64,000 nt of DNA, from the NCBI GenBank assembly GCA_903919975.1, contig CAIXKE010000057.1, positions 1-64,000 on the forward strand. Reading direction: 5' to 3'. The DNA comes from Akkermansiaceae bacterium. GTDB lineage: Bacteria; Verrucomicrobiota; Verrucomicrobiia; Verrucomicrobiales; Akkermansiaceae. The notes under the pieces were generated by a model. It was not told the DNA's origin. It worked only from the letters and a program-made list of their open reading frames with translations, and ran no database searches. The stretch's first letter is position 1. Every line of letters starts with the position of its first letter. This document shows, piece after piece, positions 4,039 through 20,590 of this stretch. Both the position numbers and the translations under genes were made by a program.

Positions 4039-4106
4039 CATCGCGCAAATGCACACGCCTGTAGCGTAACTCTATGAGTGTCGCAGCCCAGGTTCCGCGC
4101 GAAGCC

Positions 4107-4146
4107 CTCTTGTCTTGCGTCTTGTGTCTTGAAGTCTTGCGTCTCC
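4107..4146 (-). repeat. Solo copy of the heptad-type repeat that bounds the four-helix-bundle element
   Basis: Reverse complement GAGACGCAAGACTTCAAGACACAAGACGCAAGACAAGAG is nearly identical to GAGACACAAGACTTTGAGACACAAGACACAAGACAAGATG near 8887. Confidence 0.8.
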
Positions 4147-4151
4147 CACCC

Positions 4152-5174
4152 TCACTTCGCAGGAGCGACAAACGGGCGCTTCGATACCGCATCCGCCTTC
4201 GGAAAATCCGCGGGGATTTCCGTTTGCGTGACTTTTCCCGTGGCCGCCCACTCGACACCGCGATTGAAGGTCACCATGAACCCGACACACTCAAATGACT
4301 GCGTATAGTGGCCAAGCGTGGTGTGGAAAACACGGCCCTTGTCATATTTGATGGTCATGAGCATCGGCTCGTTACGACCTTCCTTACGGAGTTTTTCTGG
4401 CTCCGACGCAGTGGCGAGAATTTCCATGTTTTCGGCGGGTCCGCGCAGCAAAGAATAACATTCGTCCGAGGCGTGCATCCAAAAATCCGGCACGCCCCTG
4501 GTGATGGGATGCTCGCGGCTACGGATGGTCACGAGAAAATCGTTGAGTGGCCCATGAGCGCCGCAAGGGCCGGGCTTGGGATCGCGGACCTCCTTGCCTT
4601 CGCTGTCGATGTAAACATAGGGCCCGTGTTGCGCATTGCGCCCACCCCAGCCACCAAGACCGATCATCTTGTTGTATTCCGGCCAATCCGGGAAGCTATT
4701 GTCCGCAGCATGGACCGATACGAAGCCACCACCGTTTTTTACATACGTCTCGAACGCGCGCCGGGTCTCCTCGGGCCACGGGGCCGCCTGGTAACCGAAG
4801 TTTGAGATGACGACGTTGTATTTCGAGAAATCAGGTTTGAAATCCGGGTCGGCTTTGGGTTTCGGCAGATCCTCGGTTTTGGCACCTCCGGCCATCGGCA
4901 GGAAGAGAGCTTCCTGCATACCGTTCCATGTGAATTGGGTGCGTGCTATATCTACCTCGAAGAGTCCGGTCGCTTCGAGATACTGCCGCATGATGATCGT
5001 GGTTTTCGGCCATTCCTTGTGGTTGTTCTGGCCATCAATGATAAGCGCCTTGAGCTTCGCGGCCGCATGGGCAGTCGGAGCGATAAGAAGGGTGGTCCAG
5101 ATGGTGAGTTGAAGAAGTATTTTCATGAATTCTGATATGAAGACGTTCGAACCAAGGCCAATCTTTCCGGCCAA
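4152..5174 (-). CDS. ThuA domain-containing protein (trehalose utilization-like)
   Basis: Signal peptide, then KALIIDGQNNHKEWPKTT...NGGGFVSVHAADNSFPDWPEYNKMIGLGGWGGR. Confidence 0.88.
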   Translation of the reverse strand: MAGKIGLGSNVFISEFMKILLQLTIWTTLLIAPTAHAAAKLKALIIDGQNNHKEWPKTTIIMRQYLEATGLFEVDIARTQFTWNGMQEALFLPMAGGAKTEDLPKPKADPDFKPDFSKYNVVISNFGYQAAPWPEETRRAFETYVKNGGGFVSVHAADNSFPDWPEYNKMIGLGGWGGRNAQHGPYVYIDSEGKEVRDPKPGPCGAHGPLNDFLVTIRSREHPITRGVPDFWMHASDECYSLLRGPAENMEILATASEPEKLRKEGRNEPMLMTIKYDKGRVFHTTLGHYTQSFECVGFMVTFNRGVEWAATGKVTQTEIPADFPKADAVSKRPFVAPAK

Positions 5175-7051: not shown

Positions 7052-7341
7052 TTGAAGCGCGGAATTCATTCCGCGAGAAACATCACAGCTTGCTTGCGGA
7101 ATGAATTCCAATGCCTTTAAGGATTCAGGCTTGTCGGAGCGCGTGCATTCTGCGCGCTGCTGGATGACGGACATGCTGTCCGTCGAGCTTAGCGGAAGAC
7201 GGGTGACAGAATGTCCCCCGTCCGACAGCCGACAGAATGTCGGCGCTCCGTAGGTTTTCTCCGCTCCCTGCCGATATCAAGAAACGTAATGATCAGAATC
7301 GAATCCTTAAAGGCATTGGAATAAATTCCGCGCTCCAGTTC
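7052..7341. mobile_element. MITE-like non-coding element with long terminal inverted repeats
   Basis: GGAATGAATTCCAATGCCTTTAAGGATTC (7098-7126) is inverted at 7301-7329 with 2 mismatches. Outer GCGCGGAATTCATTCC / GGAATAAATTCCGCGCTCC, with several internal hairpins such as CGGACA-TGC-TGTCCG and CCGACA-GAA-TGTCGG. Confidence 0.7.
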
Positions 7342-7427: not shown

Positions 7428-8840
7428 TCAATAGCGGTATTGATCCGCCTTGAACGGGCCGTTCACCGAGACGCCGATGTAGTCGGCTTGCTCGGAAGTG
7501 AGCTTGGTGAGCTTCGCTCCGACCTTGGCGAGGTGGAGTCGGGCAACTTCCTCGTCGAGGTGTTTTGGCAACACGGTGACTTGACCGGCCTTGTATGCGT
7601 CCTTGTTCTTCCAGAGATCGATTTGTGCAAGCGTCTGGTTGGTGAAGCTATTGGACATCACGAAGCTCGGATGGCCGGTGGCACAGCCGAGATTCACTAG
7701 GCGGCCTTCAGCGAGCATGTAAAGGCTGTTACCGGTCGGGAAGGTATACTTGTCCACCTGCGGTTTTATATTCGTCCGAACCACACCCGCAGCATTGTTG
7801 AGCTTGTCGATTTGGATCTCGTTGTCGAAGTGACCGATGTTACAAACGATCGCCTGATCCTTCATCTTCTCCATGTGCTCAAGGCGGATAATGTCCTTGT
7901 TGCCGGTCGTGGTCACATAAATGTCACCCCAACCGAGAGTATCCTCAATGGTGAGCACGCGGAATCCTTCCATTGCCGCTTGGAGCGCGCAGATCGGATC
8001 GACTTCGGTGACGACGACTTGCGCACCTTGGCCCCGGAGAGCTTGAGCGCAGCCCTTGCCGACGTCCCCATAGCCGCAAACCACACCCACCTTACCGGAA
8101 ATCATCACGTCAGTGGCGCGCTTGATGCCGTCCACCAGCGATTCACGGCAACCGTAGAGGTTGTCGAACTTCGACTTGGTTACCGAGTCGTTGACGTTGA
8201 TCGCGGGAACGAGCAGCGTGCCTGCCTTGGCCATTTGATAGAGGCGATGCACCCCGGTGGTCGTTTCCTCGGAAACACCTTTCCAGTCCTTCACGATCTT
8301 CGCGAAGATGCCCGGTTGCTTGACCTTGATGTCCTTAAGCAGATCCTTGATCACCTGTTCCTCATGGCTTTCGGAGGCGGTTTCAATCCAAGTTGAACCG
8401 TTTTCCATTTCGAAACCCTTGTGGATGAGAAGCGTGGCGTCGCCACCGTCATCGACGATGAGCTCCGGCCCAAGGCCGGCTGGATTGACCAGCGCCTGCC
8501 ATGTGCACCACCAATATTCCTCCAGCGTTTCGCCCTTCCAAGCAAACACTGGAAAACCAACGGCGGCGATGGCGGCGGCGGCGTGATCCTGGGTTGAGAA
8601 AATATTGCAGGAAACCCAGCGCACTTCCGCACCGAGATCGGCAAGCGTCTCGATGAGCACCGCCGTCTGAATCGTCATATGCAGCGAGCCCATGATGCGC
8701 ACACCTTGCAGCGGCTTCTCAGGACCATACTTGGCACGGGTCGCCATCAATCCGGGCATTTCATGCTCGGCGATTTCAATTTCCTTACGGCCGAAATCGG
8801 CAAGGCCGATGTCGCGAACTTTGTAGTCGGTAAAACTCAT
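7428..8840 (-). CDS. ahcY: adenosylhomocysteinase
   Basis: [41 protein letters not shown]-terminus KADQYRY. Confidence 0.96.
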
Positions 8841-8886
8841 GGAGTGTTGGTTGGTTGGGGTGTGGTTGAGATTTTATTGGGAGAGA

Positions 8887-9379
8887 GACACAAGACTTTG
8901 AGACACAAGACACAAGACAAGATGAAGAATTAGAAAAAGATGGAGAGAAGACTGTTGATGATTCCTGGACCAACGAGGCGTTTGCGGAGACCTTCGAGCA
9001 TGGAGCTGACTTCCTTGGCTTCCTTGATCAAAGGCATGGCGGCTTCGTTGGTGAAAACGCCGGCGGCCAATCCGATATAGAGTTGGGTCCGAAGCTCACC
9101 AACAGAGCCTTTGGAAATCGCCAGAAAACGCCGGAACTCGCGATCACTATCACGCTCAGCACCTTCAGCAATGTTGGAAGGAACCGATATACAACTCCGC
9201 GCCATCTGATCCCTCAAAGCATATAATTTGATAGGATCGATCAACTTCAACACATCAACAGCAAGACGAGATCCGCGCTTCCAAACTTCCAGCTCCTCAA
9301 ACTGATGAAATGCCATAACGGTATCTTCTCTAGTCTTGTCTTGTGTCTTATGTCTTATGTCTTGCAGTCTTGTGTCTGT
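8887..9379 (-). mobile_element. Putative four-helix-bundle (IVS-like) element bounded by inverted heptad repeats
   Basis: Left GACACAAGACTTTGAGACACAAGACACAAGACAAGATG. Right end (reverse complement) GACACAAGACTGCAAGACATAAGACATAAGACACAAGACAAGACT. One ORF lies between. Confidence 0.65.
8930..9316 (-). CDS. four helix bundle protein (S23/23S rRNA intervening-sequence protein family)
   Basis: FEELEVWKRGSRLAVDVLKLI...LRDQMARSCISVPSNIAEGAERDSDREFRRFLAISKGSVGELRTQLYIG matches the family signature. Confidence 0.92.
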   Translation of the reverse strand: MAFHQFEELEVWKRGSRLAVDVLKLIDPIKLYALRDQMARSCISVPSNIAEGAERDSDREFRRFLAISKGSVGELRTQLYIGLAAGVFTNEAAMPLIKEAKEVSSMLEGLRKRLVGPGIINSLLSIFF

Positions 9380-9384
9380 CGGCC

Positions 9385-10581
9385 TCAGCCGACCGCCTTC
9401 TTCAGCGCGGCGACCTTATCCGTCTTCTCCCATGGGAGATCCGCGTCTTCCTTGCCGAAGTGGCCGTAGTTGGTGGACTTGGAGTAGATCGGGCGGAGCA
9501 GGTTGAGCTGTTTGACGATGTCCGCAGGCTTGAAGGAAAACACTTTAAGAATACCCGCGAGGATTTTCTCATCGCTAGCAGTGCCGGTGCCGAAGGTATC
9601 GACGTGCACGCTCACTGGAAGCGGGTGGCCGATGGCATAGGCGAACTGCACCTCGCACTTGGTCGCGAGTCCTGCGGCAACCACATTCTTGGCGACCCAG
9701 CGACCCATGTAGGCCGCGGAACGATCGACCTTCGACGGGTCCTTGCCGGAAAACGCACCGCCACCATGGCGACCGGTGCCGCCATAGGTATCAACGATGA
9801 TCTTGCGACCGGTTAGGCCGGAGTCGCCTTGAGGGCCGCCGATCACAAAATTACCGGTCGGATTGATAAGATACTCGGTGTCCTTGGTGAGCATGTTTTT
9901 CGGCAACACTTTCTTGATCACCTGCTCGATGCAGAATTTCTCAATTTCGGCGTGCTTCACGCTCGCCGCATGCTGGGTGGAAATCACCACATTGACGATG
10001 CGGGTCGGGCGGCCATTGACATATTCGACGGAAACCTGCGATTTCGCATCCGGGCGCAGCCACTTGGCGAGTTTGCCCGCCTTGCGGATGCGGGTCAGTT
10101 CGCGGCCGAGGCGATGCGCAAACATGATCGGCGCAGGCATCAACTCCGGCGTCTCGTCACAAGCGAAACCAAACATGATGCCTTGGTCACCCGCGCCTTG
10201 CTCACCGGTTTTCTTGCCTGCCGCCTTCTTCGCATCCACGCCTTGGGCGATGTCCGGCGATTGAGTAGTCAGATAGTTGTTAATGAAAATCTTGTCAGCG
10301 TGGAATACATCGTCGTCGTTCGTGTAGCCAATGCCGCGCACGGCATCGCGAATCACTTTCTCGACGTTGATCACCGATCCGATTGGCTTCTGACCGATTT
10401 TCGGAATGGTGATTTCACCGCCCACGACCACCATATTGCTCTTCACAAAGGTTTCGCAGGCTACGCGGCTTTTGGGATCGATCGCGAGGCAGGCGTCGAG
10501 AATTGCATCGGAAATCGTGTCACAAACTTTGTCTGGATGACCTTCGCCAACGGATTCGGAGGAAAAAATGTAGGTGCTCAT
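9385..10581 (-). CDS. metK: S-adenosylmethionine synthase
   Basis: [62 protein letters not shown]. Confidence 0.96.
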
Positions 10582-10599
10582 GTGGTTTGTTAAATTTCG

Positions 10600-10627
10600 T
10601 ATCGTCAAATCGTGATGCGTTGATATA
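10600..10627. promoter_or_regulatory. Imperfect dyad in the metK / ArsR-methyltransferase divergent intergenic region
   Basis: ATCGTCAA-N11-TTGATAT located between two divergent start codons. Confidence 0.4.
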
Positions 10628-20073: not shown

Positions 20074-20484
20074 TCAAATCGAGTCCCAGAAGCCATGGAT
20101 CTTGTCGATATCCCGGCGGTCCTTCTTCGTTGGCCGTCCTCCGGGGTTTTCCAATCGGGTGATGTGCCAGTTTTTTTGAACCTCAAAGACATCCGGCGCG
20201 GTCAGTTCTTCATAACAAACCCGCGCTTCGGAGGCCGCCACGCGTTTCTGGATGATGGAAATCACCGAGATCGTCCGGACTCCCGGACCTTCCGGAAACG
20301 GAATCTCCAGCACATCTCCAGGATGCGGTGTCGAACTCGCTTTGAGCACGTGTCCCGCGCGCTTCACTTTCCCCGCCGCACACAACTCCGCCGCGATGCC
20401 GCGAGTCTTGAAAAACCGCACGGCCCACAGCCATTTGTCAGTGCGAGTGGATTCGGGCATTGCTCTCAATTTAAGAATTTCCAA
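20074..20484 (-). CDS. S4 domain RNA-binding protein (Hsp15-like)
   Basis: RTDKWLWAVRFFKTRGIAAELCAAGKVKRAGHVLKASSTPHPGDVLEI. Confidence 0.88.
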   Translation of the reverse strand: MEILKLRAMPESTRTDKWLWAVRFFKTRGIAAELCAAGKVKRAGHVLKASSTPHPGDVLEIPFPEGPGVRTISVISIIQKRVAASEARVCYEELTAPDVFEVQKNWHITRLENPGGRPTKKDRRDIDKIHGFWDSI

Positions 20485-20590
20485 CCGCAGATGGACACAG
20501 ATTCACGCAGATGATAAACACAAATAAAGACTACGTTTTCATCCAATCCATCTGCGTTCATCCTGTCCATCTGCGGTTGAAATCTCTTAA
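20470..20590. repeat. Palindromic element with about 40-bp inverted repeats (AACCGCAGATGGACAC...ACGCAGATG family)
   Basis: Left TTAAGAATTTCCAACCGCAGATGGACACAGATTCACGCAGATG; right (reverse complement) TTAAGAGATTTCAACCGCAGATGGACAGGATGAACGCAGATG. Confidence 0.75.

Follow-up and report, generated by a model that had tools for sequence, protein, structure and literature searches.

An intervening-sequence-like element with heptad arms and a four-helix-bundle gene in the metK–ahcY spacer of an Akkermansiaceae bacterium

The closest described relatives of the element reported here are the intervening sequences (IVSs) of 23S rRNA in Coxiella and Leptospira, cassettes of ~430–500 nt with complementary, stem-forming ends and a PF05635/S23 open reading frame (ORF) in the loop; that of Coxiella is ~430 nt long and has a 28-bp stem that is cut by RNase III (PMC4990558). 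An element of this plan was analyzed in a 64,000-nt stretch of DNA from an Akkermansiaceae bacterium (contig CAIXKE010000057.1, positions 1–64,000; hereafter, the window). On the minus strand, a four-helix-bundle gene of 128 aa (8930–9316) occupies the loop between a 5′ arm of ACAAGAC heptads (9344–9380) and a 3′ arm of GTCTTGT heptads (8883–8919), both as read on the coding strand; the two arms constitute inverted repeat I1, and the 3′ arm was placed with the additional help of comparison with relatives. Unlike an IVS, the element lies in an mRNA spacer, between metK and ahcY, and so lacks the rRNA location that characterizes IVSs; its arms are tandem arrays of 7–10-nt units, and cutting by RNase III would extend to it by analogy. 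We consider it probable that the element is one copy of a low-activity, promoterless, IVS-like mobile cassette (5′ arm, small gene, 3′ arm) that resides in operon spacers and is carried on the host operon transcript.

Other described systems share single features with it. In P6b of the Nostoc tRNA-Leu (UAA) intron, degenerate heptads of varying copy number form a hairpin by base pairing (PMC3488679), but this intron splices itself, belongs to a tRNA gene and carries no protein gene. The TAACTGA heptamers of Beggiatoaceae, Cyanobacteria and Bacteroidetes are 7-nt repeats in tandem that lie between genes, close to gene starts, with a patchy distribution over phyla and an unexplained origin; they were described as direct repeats, however, with no link to PF05635 or to inverted arms drawn in that work (PMC4679880). 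The Avd protein of diversity-generating retroelements has a homologous four-helix-bundle fold (PMC10053308). In contrast to those retroelements, the metK–ahcY cassette carries no reverse transcriptase, and none adjoins its Avd-like gene: the neighbors are metK and ahcY, and all four reverse-transcriptase-like matches in the genome lie on other contigs. The Correia/NEMIS elements of Neisseria are RNase III-processed hairpins that resemble miniature inverted-repeat transposable elements (MITEs) and have ends of fixed sequence. Like the gene-less NCAAGAC hairpins described below, they are small, dispersed, intergenic and co-transcribed, whereas the arms of the NCAAGAC hairpins are periodic and variable between lineages. 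Finally, a figure legend in a large CRISPR survey (PMC10910872) lists a 23S rRNA IVP domain; speculatively, heptad arms around IVP genes might be mistaken for CRISPR repeats.

Occupancy of the metK–ahcY site and co-travel of arms and gene

The initial annotation had proposed looking for an empty metK–ahcY site in relatives, and such sites exist: the gap measures only 21–43 nt in nine related species, and the four-helix-bundle gene is present in twelve genomes (that of the source included), in a gap of ~450–570 nt where this could be read. The cassette is truly inserted at metK–ahcY. Three protein lineages, with different arms, account for the twelve filled sites (an NCAAGAC/ACAGAAG clade, the G007 type and the G029/G032 type), and in the tree the G029/G032-type proteins cluster with proteins from other sites. 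Within the NCAAGAC/ACAGAAG clade, the unit change from CAAGA to GAAGA can be placed on a single split of the tree and is present in both arms, and the two arms match within genomes (P = 0.001, a value inflated by relatedness). Gene-less heptad-like arrays, possible cassette remains, also stand in the metK–ahcY gap of two genomes (L061 in G015 and L065 in G004).

The main evidence for mobility is that the arms follow the protein. For copies at different sites, arm similarity had a median of 14, with 40% of pairs at 17 or above, when protein identity was at least 60%, and only 0–3% of pairs stood at 17 or above when identity was below 60%; for copies at the same site with protein identity below 50%, the median was 6 and none of the 16 pairs reached 17. 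One arm, GTTTGCTAGTTTTCAGTGT, is common to the metK–ahcY cassette of G029 and to a locus of G016 (L093), a genome in which metK–ahcY is empty. Arm sequence thus tracks the protein and not the site, so that arm, gene and arm behave as a cassette and probably move as one unit. The 3′ arms of G000 and G008 show one difference in ~32 nt, while the proportion of synonymous differences (pS) is 0.76; arms so nearly identical reflect either constraint or homogenization with the dispersed NCAAGAC family.

Periodic arms across the family, in gene-less hairpins and around a second cargo

The wider family was examined in a cross-phylum set (104 loci from many phyla, one archaeon and viral contigs, with 577 control segments) and in an order set (85 copies from the genus and order). 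Arms were counted when their pairing score exceeded the 99th percentile of same-contig controls, a threshold on which detection depends, and neighboring genes were called by simple heuristic ORF rules; shuffles and mismatched controls were used, which are no substitute for a phylogeny-aware test. The threshold was exceeded by 54 of the 104 cross-phylum loci and by 64/85 copies in the order set, and the best tandem period was 7 or 14 in 55 of the cross-phylum loci, compared with 29 of the control segments. In the 5′ arm, G exceeds C (50/54 in the cross-phylum set and 58/64 in the order set, 108 of 118 strong-arm copies together), possibly due to the ribosome-binding region. The source genome alone contains ten TIGR02436 matches, the clear copies among them having inverted arms, mostly of 7–8-nt units, that vary from copy to copy (GTGATCA, AAGGATG, GATAGGG, ATTGGAT). 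From the flanking sequence, two further copies lie in the tight operon pairs pheS–pheT and nuoI–nuoJ; another (L009) has an in-frame stop.

The marker that brackets the gene family is therefore any periodic inverted arm, the unit differing by lineage. The ACAAGAC repeat itself was rejected for this role, as most of its arrays are gene-less and other members of the family carry other units, and the expectation in the initial annotation that a 40-bp repeat would consistently bracket four-helix-bundle genes fails for the same reason. That annotation was right about the heptads but not about a fixed 40-bp unit: the heptads form a degenerate array in which the step following the first unit is irregular. 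The outcome that it named as refuting, repeats away from the gene, is borne out in part, the ACAAGAC arrays being mostly gene-less in the genus; its interpretation holds in part and has to be widened. Neither of two conserved 23S rRNA motifs was found in any of the 453 loci examined, so the rRNA setting that gave the PF05635 family its name appears to be uncommon for it. The occurrence of the gene-in-hairpin plan in many bacteria and an archaeon, with arm words that change from case to case, suggests that mobile cassettes of this kind are widespread but have been little described.

A scan for periodic inverted arms in 1.66 Mb from the source genome and two related genomes returned 39 hairpins, the metK–ahcY element included, compared with none in a Markov-shuffled control. 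Ten of the 11 hairpins with loops of 250–750 nt carry a four-helix-bundle gene (eight cases, seven recognized by profile and one by position) or a GxxExxY (TIGR04256) gene (two cases, one broken); the eleventh is a coding coincidence. Two hairpins with loops above 1 kb (L331 and L372) were rejected as cassettes, being two separate arrays around ordinary genes. Strong arms flank 19 of 29 GxxExxY genes, compared with none of 28 similar-sized PIN-domain genes taken as a control, and their units are mostly ~8–10 nt long, for example AACCGCCAAGACGCCAAG (loci L381:6154–6653, L391:3457–3911 and L394–L423).

With up to one mismatch allowed, the NCAAGAC array pattern has 23 matches in the source genome, against none for the reversed pattern, and 139 in G043 (control 0). 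The arrays are dispersed in the genus and mostly gene-less, with many inverted pairs 50–150 nt apart, often right behind a stop codon, and the dispersed hairpins share arm substructure. One gene-less NCAAGAC array in the window (4106–4135) lies directly 3′ of the stop of a minus-strand gene (4152–5174). The window also contains a gene-less periodic hairpin of the AACCGCAGATGGACACAGAT type with a 35-nt loop (20474–20587) and, at ~7105–7325, another dispersed hairpin repeat with the ends CCAATGCCTTTAAGGATTC and GAATCCTTAAAGGCATTGG and the core GACATTCTGTCGGC, related copies of which are found at L316, L333, L341 and L345.

The gene, its neighbors and the read-through RNA

The 128-aa ORF matches PF05635 with 101.9 bits (curated cut-off 33.8, E = 2.7e-29) and TIGR02436 with 101.2 bits (curated cut-off 24, E = 3.6e-29), and the solved structure 2gsc is a relative of its product (E = 2.7e-13); a defense or phage family identity was rejected, there being no PADLOC or PHROGs match. 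The I1 arms are 37 nt each and 84% complementary, and an inner register (I2) pairs 22 nt with 95% complementarity. The start codon is separated from the 5′ arm by a leader (9317–9343, minus strand) that, as judged from the sequence, I2 and the fold, extends the arm (I2, 9334–9355) and includes a purine-rich ribosome-binding region. The upstream host gene, metK (9385–10608, minus strand, from the ORF list), has a listed TTG start with an in-frame ATG a few codons further downstream, and its stop is 4 nt away from the right arm end; the downstream host gene is ahcY (7428–8840, minus strand, from the ORF list and comparison with relatives). The four-helix-bundle gene is co-directional with both. 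Much of the initial annotation is hereby confirmed: a single S23/four-helix-bundle ORF bounded by inverted ACAAGAC heptads, as the profiles and the I1 arms attest; an element that fills the metK–ahcY gap in the direction of both genes, with its right end placed at about 5 bp from the metK stop; and an IVS-like plan of arms with a co-directional ORF in the loop. Neither a sigma70-like promoter nor an intrinsic terminator was found at 8700–9700, and an Rfam search over the whole window gave no matches.

Among nine metK–ahcY orthologues, the ratio of nonsynonymous to synonymous substitution rates (dN/dS) is ~0.1 where measurable, with synonymous sites near saturation; purifying selection acts on the protein. 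Of 76 copies in cellular genomes, 66 are co-directional with both neighbors, an orientation that fits a promoterless passenger of host transcripts. On viral contigs (L188–L223) the pattern is reversed, with 14 of 28 copies opposed to both neighbors. The minimum-energy RNA fold of the element pairs the arms and is more stable than shuffles (z = −4.8).

In the mechanism that we propose, the cassette sits between co-transcribed genes and would be carried by the host operon transcript. The metK–ahcY read-through RNA would fold into a stem of ~35–40 bp with the gene in its loop, and RNase III would be expected to cut this stem as it does in rRNA IVSs; cut out of the operon RNA, the cassette would therefore cost the host little. 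The four-helix-bundle protein, an Avd homologue, probably acts on the RNA or DNA hairpin of its own cassette. The arm word differs between lineages yet matches within one copy, which makes it probable that slippage and hairpin-templated copying keep the two arms alike and that the arms serve as structure rather than as a fixed recognition sequence.

Alternative explanations and significance

Several observations weigh against a mobile cassette carried on host RNA. No target-site duplication can be defined, as empty and filled relatives are too diverged outside the genes for a base-exact junction, and recent transposition, whether as near-identical copies at two sites or as an insertion polymorphism between close strains, was not seen. 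The arm threshold is missed by about half of the cross-phylum loci, and one weak, partial TIGR02436 match in the source genome (L010) is without arms. The co-directional orientation could stem in part from selective removal of antisense insertions and not from a need for the host transcript. Moreover, G–U arm mismatches are not enriched over A–C (86:90 in the cross-phylum set and 98:151 in the order set), a result that gives no support for selection on the RNA stem and points instead to DNA-level, hairpin-templated homogenization as the process that makes the arms match, whatever their role.

This lack of G–U enrichment would also suit arms that are neutral simple-sequence expansions, heptads grown by slippage in spacers and matched by hairpin-templated repair, serving neither the gene nor mobility. 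Heptamers are, as cited in PMC4679880, the most abundant class of long simple repeats in most bacterial genomes surveyed, and heptad hairpins occur without a gene too; however, the control segments and the PIN-domain genes mostly or wholly lack arms, the arms track protein lineage across sites and, in G000 and G008, they are near-identical despite saturated synonymous sites, so that we regard neutral expansion as unlikely. Quite unlikely, too, is a resident, vertically inherited operon gene whose own stem controls translation, the 5′ arm reaching the ribosome-binding region and the 3′ arm covering it. The strong purifying selection and the G-rich 5′ arm extending close to the start codon would both be expected of such a gene, but not its patchiness in close relatives, the unrelated lineages at one site or the recurrence of the same arms in related cassettes elsewhere.

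The dispersed gene-less NCAAGAC hairpins, with their shared arm substructure and up to 139 pattern matches per genome, recall MITEs and would be accounted for by a DNA transposon-like unit with the arms as terminal inverted repeats, moved by a host transposase in trans. Arms are conserved inside protein lineages and among the NCAAGAC hairpins, yet they differ between the copies of one genome; a separate arm sequence for each gene-bearing copy is unlike repeats read by one enzyme and, the diverged junctions permitting no exact comparison, no target duplication was seen, making this explanation very unlikely. The least probable is RNA-based mobility, in which the protein would recruit a host reverse transcriptase to the cassette RNA. 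The reported homology to Avd (PMC10053308) and the bias of insertions to the sense strand speak for it, but a reverse transcriptase was not detected in several genomes with 4–9 copies (for example, G005, G006, G018 and G029). Such genomes keep their copies without one, so no reverse transcriptase is needed for upkeep, and its candidacy as a required partner is unsupported.

The IVS-like mobile cassette thus remains our preferred account of the metK–ahcY element. A broader proposition is more tentative, and we would put it at somewhat below even chances: that cassettes with lineage-specific, 7–10-nt periodic arms form a separate, bacteria-wide mobile class in operon spacers, with at least two cargo families (four-helix-bundle and GxxExxY) and gene-less derivatives, of which rRNA IVSs would be one special case and many unexplained heptamer repeats the remains. 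The ingredients are known singly (PF05635 in rRNA IVSs, heptad hairpins in a tRNA intron, TAACTGA heptamers and the homology to Avd); joining them appears to be new, insofar as a search of the open-access literature, with subscription papers mostly outside it and a prior description thus possible, returned no paper linking heptads to PF05635 or GxxExxY. If the proposition is true, a small gene of unknown role, among the most widely scattered of its kind, would prove to be the cargo of an overlooked mobile cassette and not a ribosome-linked protein, and three oddities known from separate descriptions (rRNA IVSs, spacer heptamer repeats and the scattered GxxExxY genes) would have a common origin. 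The question of what the protein is for would then become directly testable, as RNA cutting and hairpin binding.
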